Virus record (IMG/VR): IMGVR_UViG_3300048115_000173
Coordinates: 1 to 40,311 of that record
Length of the DNA stretch: 40,311 nt
Strand: one strand, 5' to 3'
Source of the DNA: a virus
In this document: positions 17,728-20,050 of the stretch, piece after piece
Numbering within the stretch: the first letter of the stretch is position 1
Layout: each line of letters starts with the position of its first letter
Notes under the pieces: generated by a model
What the model was told of the DNA's origin: nothing
The model's input: only the letters and a program-made list of their open reading frames with translations
The model's database searches: none
Program-made: the position numbers and the translations under genes

Positions 17728-18097
17728 CAAGATATTCTCACAGTTTATCCGGCTGCGTGCGGTCAACGATGAAGGGTGGGGAGCTTGTTTCACTTGCGAT
17801 CGCTTGCGCCATTACAAGAGCGCAGACGCTGGACATTTTATGGTGCGGCAAAAGATGCCCACCCGATTCGATGAACTCAACGTTCAATTTCAGTGTAAAG
17901 CTTGCAACGGATTCGAAGGGGGAGCACAATACGAATTCGCCAAACGTCTTGACCAACTACACGGAGAAGGGACAGCGGATCGCCTTGTTCGGTTGAGCAA
18001 CGAAACGAAGCGATTCAGCGTTCACGAACTGGAGGCACTTTGCAAAATATATAAAGAGAAGGTCAATGAACTCAGGAAGTCGAAAGGGTTGGAATAG
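17696..18097 (+). CDS. NinG/Rap-like recombination protein (phage A)
   Basis: The 133-aa protein has the zinc-nuclease layout of NinG: CFTCDR (Cys31/Cys34), AGHFM (His47), and CKACN (Cys67/Cys70), followed by a helical C-terminus. NinG (Rap) of lambda is a Holliday-junction/branched-DNA endonuclease aiding recombination. The phage B homologue at 39407 keeps all these residues. It overlaps both neighbouring genes by about 32 bases. Confidence 0.8.
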   Translation: MTVAKAKAKLDKIFSQFIRLRAVNDEGWGACFTCDRLRHYKSADAGHFMVRQKMPTRFDELNVQFQCKACNGFEGGAQYEFAKRLDQLHGEGTADRLVRLSNETKRFSVHELEALCKIYKEKVNELRKSKGLE

Positions 18098-18551
18098 CTT
18101 CTTAACGAAGCACTATTCAAAACTTGTTCGCATCGGTCGACGATGGACGGACAGCCCTTCCGACCTTGTACATCACACCTATCTTCGATGCATTGACAAA
18201 CGCTTTCCCGATGGGGATAACGAAAACCCGCTCGGGTACTTTGTTAAAGCTATGTACACCGAAGCGACACGAGGAAAATTCAAAGACTTATATCACGTAA
18301 CAGATGCTGACCCCAAAGAACAAACCTTCGAAAGCGACTGGACCAAAGCCATCCAACGCGAACAAATGCAACTCATCCTTGACCGCCTCTCCTGGTTTGA
18401 TAGAACAATCTTCTCTCTATACTTGCAAGGGTGGAACATGGCTGACGTATCTCGACGGTCTGGCGTTGGAGAATCGACCCTTTATCGCTCACTACACATC
18501 ACCCGAAAAATTTTAAAAGATGTTCTTCGTAACGGCTCAAAAGAGGACTGA
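18066..18551 (+). CDS. Phage sigma-70-like (ECF-type) transcription factor
   Basis: A 161-aa protein. Residues ~10-75 resemble sigma region 2 (SPSDLVHHTYLRCID, then NPLGYFVKAMYTEATR), and ~105-152 resemble region 4 (LDRLSWFDRTIFSLYLQGWN and the helix-turn-helix MADVSRRSGVGESTLYRSLH). It may direct host RNA polymerase to phage late promoters, since the early promoters look like host housekeeping ones. It overlaps the NinG gene and the zinc-protein gene. No counterpart was seen in the phage B segment. Confidence 0.65.
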   Translation: MNSGSRKGWNSFLTKHYSKLVRIGRRWTDSPSDLVHHTYLRCIDKRFPDGDNENPLGYFVKAMYTEATRGKFKDLYHVTDADPKEQTFESDWTKAIQREQMQLILDRLSWFDRTIFSLYLQGWNMADVSRRSGVGESTLYRSLHITRKILKDVLRNGSKED

Positions 18552-18903: not shown

Positions 18904-19103
18904 GCTTCACAGCAACAGAACGGGAGATCATAGCGGAGAACATCCGCCAATTCCTCAAACAAGACCAGAAAGAGAAGTTCGAACACCAGCACTTCGGAGG
19001 AGATCCCTTCCTCGTGAAGCGTGTTCTTCCCATTACACAATACGACAAAGAGACCCTGGAGAATATTGCACGGGATGTCGAAGGTAGAATCTTACACCCA
19101 TGA
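18900..19103 (+). CDS. Small acidic/basic helical protein, 67 aa
   Basis: It starts in an ATGA overlap and ends in an ATGA overlap with the methyltransferase gene. It is charged and helical (TEREIIAENIRQFLKQDQKE), with HQHFGGDPFLVKRVLPITQY in the middle. No family was recognised. The location suggests that it is co-made with the methyltransferase. Confidence 0.6.
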   Translation: MSFTATEREIIAENIRQFLKQDQKEKFEHQHFGGDPFLVKRVLPITQYDKETLENIARDVEGRILHP

Positions 19104-20050
19104 CTCATGGCTCACTTTTCTCAGGAATCGGAGGCTTTGATCTCGCGGCTGAATGGTCAGGGTATACCAACCTCTTTAACTGCGAGTGGGAAGAATTCCC
19201 TCGCAAAGTCCTCAAACACCACTTCCCCAATGCAGAACAATTCGGAGACATCAAAGAATTCAACGCGACAGCTTACTCTGGAAGACTTGATATCCTCTCT
19301 GGAGGGTTCCCCTGTCAACCGTTCAGCGTTGCAGGAAAACGGAAAGGCTCAGAGGATGAACGCCACCTGTGGCCGCAGATGCTTAGAGTTATCGGAGAGT
19401 GTCAACCCCGTTGGGTCGTGGGAGAGAACGTTCGCGGGCTTGTTAGTTGGTCGGACGGATTGGTACTCGAAGAGGTGTACTCTGACTTGGAAGCTCTCGG
19501 GTACTCCGTCCAATCGTTTATTATTCCAGCTTGTGCCACGAACGCTCCCCACAGACGCGACAGAGTTTGGATTGTTGCTCACTCCGACAACTTCGGAACC
19601 CGTTCACGACTTGGAGAAATTCAAAGCGAGAATGGAGAAGTATCCGAATGGAACAACGATGCCAAACTTAGCGACACAGATTCACGGAATGCTCCCGACA
19701 CCGACAGCGGTAGATGCAAAAGGAGCATACCGACCGGAGTCTATGATAAGCAAAAACGGAAAATTCGACAGGACGGAGAGGCTATCAAATATATATCTCA
19801 AGACTGGAACGGAGTACAATTCGAAAACTTCCCAACTGTCCCCCCTATTTGTAGAGGAGATGATGGGCTTCCCAAAGAACTGGACGGCATTACCTTTCCA
19901 AAGTGGCGAAGAGAATCCATCAAAGCATACGGAAACGCAATAGTTCCTCAAGTCGCACACCGTATATTTGAATCAATTAAAGACTATGAGAAACGCAAGA
20001 AAAGCCCTCCTCCATGCGAAGAACTTCCTTCTCATCACGGAGAACGATAA
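19100..20050 (+). CDS. dcm: C5-cytosine DNA methyltransferase
   Basis: A 316-aa enzyme with motif I FSGIGGFD (7-14), motif IV GGFPCQPFS with catalytic Cys72, motif VI ENV (109-111), motif VIII HRRDRVW (151-157) and motif X AYGNAIVPQ (276-284). It methylates the C5 of cytosine in a short target that cannot be read from the sequence. No cognate restriction enzyme is nearby, so protection against host restriction is the likely role. About 88% of the gene is open in a second frame (see next entry). Confidence 0.9.
   Translation: MTHGSLFSGIGGFDLAAEWSGYTNLFNCEWEEFPRKVLKHHFPNAEQFGDIKEFNATAYSGRLDILSGGFPCQPFSVAGKRKGSEDERHLWPQMLRVIGECQPRWVVGENVRGLVSWSDGLVLEEVYSDLEALGYSVQSFIIPACATNAPHRRDRVWIVAHSDNFGTRSRLGEIQSENGEVSEWNNDAKLSDTDSRNAPDTDSGRCKRSIPTGVYDKQKRKIRQDGEAIKYISQDWNGVQFENFPTVPPICRGDDGLPKELDGITFPKWRRESIKAYGNAIVPQVAHRIFESIKDYEKRKKSPPPCEELPSHHGER
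19107..19943 (+). CDS. Overprinted ORF within the methyltransferase gene, 278 aa
   Basis: In the +1 frame of the methyltransferase there are 278 codons without a stop. The product carries blocks that I recognise from proteins found in phages next to C5 methylases: WERTFAGLLVG (105-115), WYSKRCTLTWKL (119-130), LLTPT and LPTPTAVDAKG (157-206), and LSPLFVEEMMGFPKNWT (244-260). Such blocks would not appear by chance in a shadow frame, so both frames probably encode protein. Its function is unknown, perhaps a partner of the methylase. The start at 19107 is the first ATG in the frame and the N-terminus is uncertain. Confidence 0.6.
   Translation: MAHFSQESEALISRLNGQGIPTSLTASGKNSLAKSSNTTSPMQNNSETSKNSTRQLTLEDLISSLEGSPVNRSALQENGKAQRMNATCGRRCLELSESVNPVGSWERTFAGLLVGRTDWYSKRCTLTWKLSGTPSNRLLFQLVPRTLPTDATEFGLLLTPTTSEPVHDLEKFKARMEKYPNGTTMPNLATQIHGMLPTPTAVDAKGAYRPESMISKNGKFDRTERLSNIYLKTGTEYNSKTSQLSPLFVEEMMGFPKNWTALPFQSGEENPSKHTETQ

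Follow-up and report, generated by a model that had tools for sequence, protein, structure and literature searches.

Split C5-methyltransferases are already known as a class, in which the conserved motifs of the enzyme are distributed over two polypeptides. The small subunit of M.EcoHK31I, a two-polypeptide enzyme of the specificity YGGCCR, is encoded within the large-subunit gene in another frame, which would give nesting itself a precedent. In the published description of this restriction-modification enzyme, the large subunit holds motifs I–VIII and X together with the predicted target-recognition domain (TRD), and the small subunit holds only motif IX (PMC3404938). In M.AquI, the small subunit comprises the distal variable region and motifs IX–X (PMC3404938). 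Alternatively, several specificities can be combined on one polypeptide, as in the multispecific methyltransferases of Bacillus phages (SPR, SP-beta, phi3T, rho11, and H2), which are single chains with tandem TRDs that methylate several targets (PMC8936443 and references therein). In the actinophages, an independently published HHpred analysis of Corndog, a phage related to Firecracker, aligned the final 53 residues of the homologue with the last helices of M.HaeIII; the same analysis noted coding potential in the overlap, and its authors asked whether the two products assemble (PMC4351075).

The locus examined here lies in the window, i.e., the whole stretch of 40,311 nucleotides that was analysed, which is a virus record. 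The neighbours of the methyltransferase gene form a phage module (NinG, a sigma-like protein, ParB_N, and terminase genes). A +1 open reading frame of 70 aa (18304–18516, + strand) also sits within the sigma-like gene (18066–18551), where third-position divergence is slightly low; it was dropped as a second overlap, as its homologues contain several +1 stops and the signal is inconsistent, and it is probably due to chance. The methyltransferase gene itself (frame A, 951 nt) has the following features:

19100–20050, + strand: frame A, catalytic (alpha) subunit, C5-cytosine DNA methyltransferase, 316 aa (PF00145, E=1.4e-46)
19112–19150, + strand: frame A motif I
19289–19327, + strand: frame A motif IV (PCQ)
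19412–19444, + strand: frame A motif VI (ENV)
19544–19579, + strand: frame A motif VIII (APHRRDRVW)
19925–19957, + strand: frame A motif X (GNAIVPQ)

Frame A is a C5-cytosine DNA methyltransferase by its family profile and by the presence of motifs I, IV, VI, VIII, and X in order. It contains motifs I–VIII and X and is devoid of motif IX, which was sought in frame A and is absent both in the window and in 80 of the 80 relatives retrieved with A. A complete single-chain C5-methyltransferase was consequently ruled out for frame A, and the initial annotation, in which the methyltransferase frame was described as intact with all motifs, has to be corrected on this point, because motif IX is located in the overlapping +1 frame (frame B). 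The sequence match of frame A to M.HhaI is restricted to residues 5–164, and the predicted fold resembles the catalytic domain of M.HhaI over ~163 columns; residues 166–255 are predicted to be disordered (pLDDT ~30).

The +1 open reading frame that had been reported for this gene (19107–19943, 278 codons, 88% of the methyltransferase gene) is present exactly as claimed, and the +1 frame of the window can be read without interruption from 19104 up to its stop at 19943. As the extent of a gene, this span stands from 19230 onward, whereas the openness of its first 41 codons is not conserved: in most relatives, B-frame stops occur at A+46 or just before A+115. Stops in close relatives had been named at the outset as an observation that would speak against a second gene; those found are confined to the region upstream of about 19215 and thus precede the conserved start, and the frame is open in most relatives from there to ~50–165 nt short of the stop of A. 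The first ATG from A+100 on is A+130/142/145/148 in 57 of 65 distinct sequences, and its equivalent in the window is 19230. Since the B frame of relatives is closed upstream and this internal ATG is conserved, B most likely extends over 19230–19943 (237 aa) rather than starting at 19107. The four-fold difference of frame A over 19107–19229 is normal (0.56–0.71), and no clear Shine-Dalgarno sequence was found upstream of the ATG at 19230. The features of frame B are as follows:

19230–19943, + strand: frame B (+1), putative nested beta subunit, 237 aa; ATG at 19230 most likely start, stop TAG at 19941–19943
19107–19229, + strand: 5' extension of the B frame, openness not conserved, probably untranslated
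19458–19538, + strand: predicted beta-hairpin of B (DWYSKRCTLTWKL...TPSNRLLFQLVP), strands 83–91 and 97–105, pLDDT ~60–72
19572–19688, + strand: B cassette 1, LLLTPTTSEPVHDLEKFKARMEKYPNGTTMPNLATQIHG, putative target-recognition module, found in 41 proteins
19689–19835, + strand: B cassette 2, MLPTPTAVDAKG...KTSQ, putative target-recognition module
19836–19886, + strand: B motif IX, LSPLFVEEMMGFPKNWT, assigned by hhalign via actinophage beta/fused proteins

In the window, B thus carries two ~40-aa "LPTP" cassettes followed by motif IX (LSPLFVEEMMGFPKNW), and its C-terminus consists of LSPLFVEEMMGFPKNWT and a short tail. The predicted hairpin is the best-modelled part of B, includes near-invariant columns, and overlaps motifs VII–VIII of A. 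AlphaFold on B alone gave a poor model (pLDDT 49.5); sequence searches of the PDB with B and its profile, and of Pfam and NCBIfam with B, returned no match. B does match PHROG 1008 (phrog_1008; E=1.3e-23), residues 29–267 of the 278-codon open reading frame aligning to positions 9–286 of 329. This family is labelled "DNA methyltransferase", a label that is silent on the nesting of its members inside a methyltransferase gene.

The length and openness of the +1 frame by themselves are weak evidence, and the strength of the case comes from conservation. At least 237 open +1 codons in a row arose in 78 of 20000 synonymous recodings of A with genome codon usage (0.4%) and in 711 of 20000 codon-permutation recodings (3.6%). 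When the four-fold degenerate sites of A with the same amino acid were compared, the median column difference was 0.669 outside B (16 columns) versus 0.218 inside (61 columns; p=4e-8, Mann-Whitney on columns, which are not fully independent, so that the p-value is indicative). Along the gene, the four-fold difference is 0.56–0.71 before ~19243, lies at 0.04–0.4 across most of the overlap with its lowest values over the motif IX stretch (0.08–0.11), and returns to ~0.66–0.75 past the stop of B; higher values within the overlap occur in two thin windows at the variable region and in one at codons 85–96. Similarly, the third-position differences of A are 0.50 and 0.52 outside B and 0.29 and 0.19 inside. 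As a control, terminase from these phages shows ~0.55–0.65 over most of its length without a comparable dip. Long dual coding is therefore under selection in both frames, and the initial proposal of two conserved proteins over a long shared stretch is borne out by the relatives as well as by the codon-position statistics, the quoted blocks (e.g., LPTPTAVDAKG) being conserved in relatives.

The nested arrangement is conserved across hundreds of phages and prophages. Relatives of B occur in phages of Bacteroides, Porphyromonas, Lacticaseibacillus, Paenibacillus, and Microcystis, among others, and more distant A/B versions, likewise in +1, are found in proteobacterial genomes. Among the first relatives (phages, IMG/VR), B lies in +1 of A in 89 of 89, with the core open in each and both frames matching; it does so again in 159 of 160 further loci, half of which are from GTDB genomes (80 genome contigs), and all 80 loci retrieved using A alone hold it in that frame. 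These three locus sets share some contigs, and their counts are accordingly not additive. The sole exception among the 160 is a frameshifted copy (L155), and the few short A/B overlaps in that set are contig ends or degraded copies. Among 30 methyltransferase loci from a TIGR00675 search (class of G001), B was present only in two, both of the A type. The search for a separate gene, which had been suggested as a check, covered phages, plasmids, IMG/VR, and GTDB genomes; among the loci examined, no stand-alone homologue of B was found outside a +1 overlap with A, apart from frameshifted or end-of-contig copies. In actinophages, however, the homologous part exists as a barely overlapping gene or as an in-frame fusion.

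These actinophage proteins connect B to motif IX. B aligns with the actinophage beta/fused proteins in hhalign (prob 95.5, E 1.3e-8), and the actinophage group aligns in turn with canonical motifs IX–X (E 3.8e-4), in register and with motif IX, canonically RRLTPRECARLMGFP, placed on LTPRECARLMGFP. A direct match of B to canonical motif IX was without significance (hhalign prob 6, hmmsearch E 0.2); B most likely carries motif IX, with homology running through the actinophage intermediates. In Firecracker (gp6/gp5), Rebeuca (gp80/gp79), and RemusLoopin (gp34/gp35), the two halves are separate genes in +1 that overlap by 209, 50, and 32 nt, respectively, and the second genes end in motifs IX–X. 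In Filuzino gp68, Daenerys gp70, and B22 gp50, the catalytic domain is followed in the same frame by the B-homologous part as a fusion. The single chain of Filuzino gp68 comprises the catalytic domain, six LPTP repeats, LTAAFPEWMMGWPAGW, and GNGVCPQQA, so that its LPTP repeats are located between motif VIII and motif IX, the usual position of the target-recognition domain; phrog_1008 unites B, the actinophage second genes, and residues 348–535 of this protein. In the Filuzino locus (Mycobacterium phage, 725–1120) and the B22 locus (Propionibacterium phage, 1426–1881), the N-terminal part of B, a TSGMTR-type block with LPTP-like sequence after it, can still be read in the +1 frame, while the cassettes and motifs IX and X belong to the main frame. 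This +1 stretch may be an evolutionary relic, may serve as a frameshift donor, or may give a short functional protein.

Compared with the described systems, the window pair has the same motif division as M.EcoHK31I (I–VIII and X on one polypeptide, IX alone on the other) and may be likened to it in this respect, on the published description, without being filed as a member. The two differ in that the TRD of M.EcoHK31I is predicted in the large subunit, whereas the candidate TRD cassettes of the window type (1–7) are in the small one, and in that M.EcoHK31I is a restriction-modification enzyme, whereas the window type occurs in phages and prophages. None of the E. coli and plasmid records was identifiable as EcoHK31I, and the E. 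coli matches are prophage genes. M.AquI and the actinophage pairs Corndog gp7/gp6 and Firecracker gp6/gp5 resemble the window in having two genes for the two halves; however, their small subunit carries IX and X, whereas motif X remains in A in the window, and the actinophage small-subunit gene overlaps the large one partly, whereas B is fully nested. An M.AquI-type assignment was ruled out for the window pair because motif X is in A; Firecracker gp5, which belongs to phrog_1008 like B, does have motif X in the second product. Unlike the tandem TRDs of the single-chain Bacillus phage enzymes, the modules of the window are putative TRDs in an overprinted second frame. The same nested +1 gene is present in Paenibacillus phage Diva as gp50, listed in GenBank as "g49 internal gene", a hypothetical protein with no assigned function.

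Between its N-terminal part and motif IX, B contains a cassette region of 1–7 tandem units in the second frame, each of which begins with an LPTP variant (median length 41 aa, interquartile range 37–44). In 205 distinct B proteins, 491 cassettes of 259 types form 174 arrangements, and 75 cassette types are common to more than one protein; cassettes were split by pattern, and these counts are approximate. Cassettes are shuffled between phages: for example, cassette 1 of the window occurs in 41 proteins and 29 neighbour contexts. Cassette 2 of the window is shared with none of the other B proteins compared. Within the commonest cassette type, to which cassette 1 of the window belongs, differences at the three B-codon positions are 0.157/0.102/0.482, i.e., mostly at the third position, and the amino acid difference is 0.155 in B versus 0.530 in A; all eleven cassette types with enough members show the same substitution pattern. 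Because change falls mostly on the B third position and the B protein is kept while that of A diverges, selection in the cassette stretch targets frame B, with A carried along as a passenger that must only stay open. The position of the Filuzino repeats at the usual TRD site and the precedent of the tandem-TRD Bacillus phage enzymes suggest that the cassettes are target-recognition modules.

The locus is thus, with high confidence, interpreted as a split C5-methyltransferase made from two nested frames, in which B contributes motif IX and the target-recognition cassettes and which probably serves an anti-restriction purpose. In the proposed mechanism, frame A would yield the large domain with motifs I–VIII and X for SAM binding and the catalytic Cys, and frame B, initiated at the internal ATG ~130 nt into A, would yield the small-domain subunit, in which a conserved segment at the N-terminus is followed by one to several target-recognition cassettes of ~41 aa and by motif IX. 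Either product by itself would be incomplete, and the two would assemble into a two-domain active enzyme, as in the single-chain relatives. In the cassette stretch, A would form a disordered linker to motif X that need only remain open. The cassettes, which move between phages as DNA modules, may determine the methylated sites, several cassettes specifying several sites at once; a cassette swap would then change or add targets, which could be useful against diverse host restriction enzymes, and methylation would most likely shield the phage DNA from host restriction. It is further considered fairly probable that the whole target-recognition machinery of a very widespread phage methyltransferase is overprinted in its own catalytic gene as exchangeable cassettes, such that phages would recombine DNA specificity by swapping modules kept open in two frames.

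The conservation of B could in principle be a shadow of A, with B untranslated and looking conserved through a conserved A with few +1 stops. Openness alone does arise in 0.4–3.6% of synonymous recodings, but the synonymous sites of A are suppressed over B, and a shadow of A cannot yield cassettes in which A diverges (0.53) and B is kept (0.16) with change mostly at the B third position; the probability of this explanation is practically negligible. An independent overprinted protein, such as a regulator, an inhibitor, or an anti-restriction factor for which the methyltransferase gene is merely the carrier, would accord with a long conserved nested frame that has no Pfam or NCBIfam match. Such a protein is nevertheless very unlikely, as none of the examined loci has B without A, B holds a motif that A lacks, and its homologous part is an in-frame continuation of the catalytic domain in the three actinophage proteins mentioned above. 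The initial annotation had suggested that the second protein may regulate the methylase, may complement it (in the choice of targets, for example), or may protect against host nucleases; motif IX and the putative recognition modules in B favour complementation, including target choice, and neither regulation nor nuclease protection as a separate activity has found support.

Two other possibilities retain the methyltransferase function of both frames. One fused product, obtained by programmed frameshift, ribosome hop, or splicing in place of two subunits, is suggested by the existence of single-chain versions and was left as a possibility for the actinophage version by the Corndog authors (PMC4351075). 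For the window type it is highly improbable, given that A has no stop within the overlap and reaches its own motif X past the end of B, that a frameshift product would miss the end of A or the start of B, and that the internal ATG in B is conserved; in cluster O, moreover, splicing was not seen by RT-PCR (PMC4351075). The other possibility, a split methyltransferase with specificity in the variable region of A and with B supplying motif IX alone, would follow the published prediction for M.EcoHK31I (PMC3404938), but it is quite unlikely where, within one cassette type, the residues of A vary and those of B are conserved, where the variable region of A is predicted to be disordered, and where the LPTP repeats of Filuzino sit between motifs VIII and IX. 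A split enzyme with its recognition modules in B remains the preferred reading.

If the entire recognition machinery is indeed overprinted as exchangeable cassettes, the pair would rank with the most widespread of the long, conserved dual-coding genes known from tailed phages, and it would generate methylation specificities combinatorially in nature. The locus is a clear example of dual coding over a long stretch of one strand, with a proposed function for each frame. A beta subunit that is nested and bears cassettes, as a general trait of phage C5-methyltransferases, appears undescribed; it was not found in the part of the literature covered, in which the comment on cluster O is closest (PMC4351075). 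As annotation usually keeps one frame per locus, the probable specificity half is missing from many phage records or is labelled hypothetical or "DNA methyltransferase", and orphan phage "Dcm" genes cloned by the annotated frame may seem inactive unless the internal frame is intact. The series of fused, end-overlapping, and fully nested versions shows possible stages in the evolution of nesting, and the at least 259 recombining cassette types may amount to a catalogue of targets. Likewise, the question raised in 2015 for cluster O mycobacteriophages, whether two products form one methylase, becomes testable (PMC4351075).

Several variants of the locus were encountered among the relatives. A second pair type is present in an E. 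coli PT62 prophage (L274, 2398–3135) and in Acinetobacter phage ABMM1 (L345); its B-like frame is already open where A begins (MSWLFSQAL...) and bears LNPQWVEWFMGWPIGW, and the pair is a longer-overlap version of the same design. Degraded or frameshifted A/B copies occur in bacterial genomes (L155, L156, and L160), and at another E. coli prophage locus (L275) the annotation lists the methyltransferase gene as a pseudogene containing an internal stop. Finally, intein-like insertions are found at methyltransferase motif IV in frame A of locus L268 (genome G254) and in B22 gp50 (L341), where the chain stops at ...PC and resumes with HNCQPF or HNCQD several hundred residues later.
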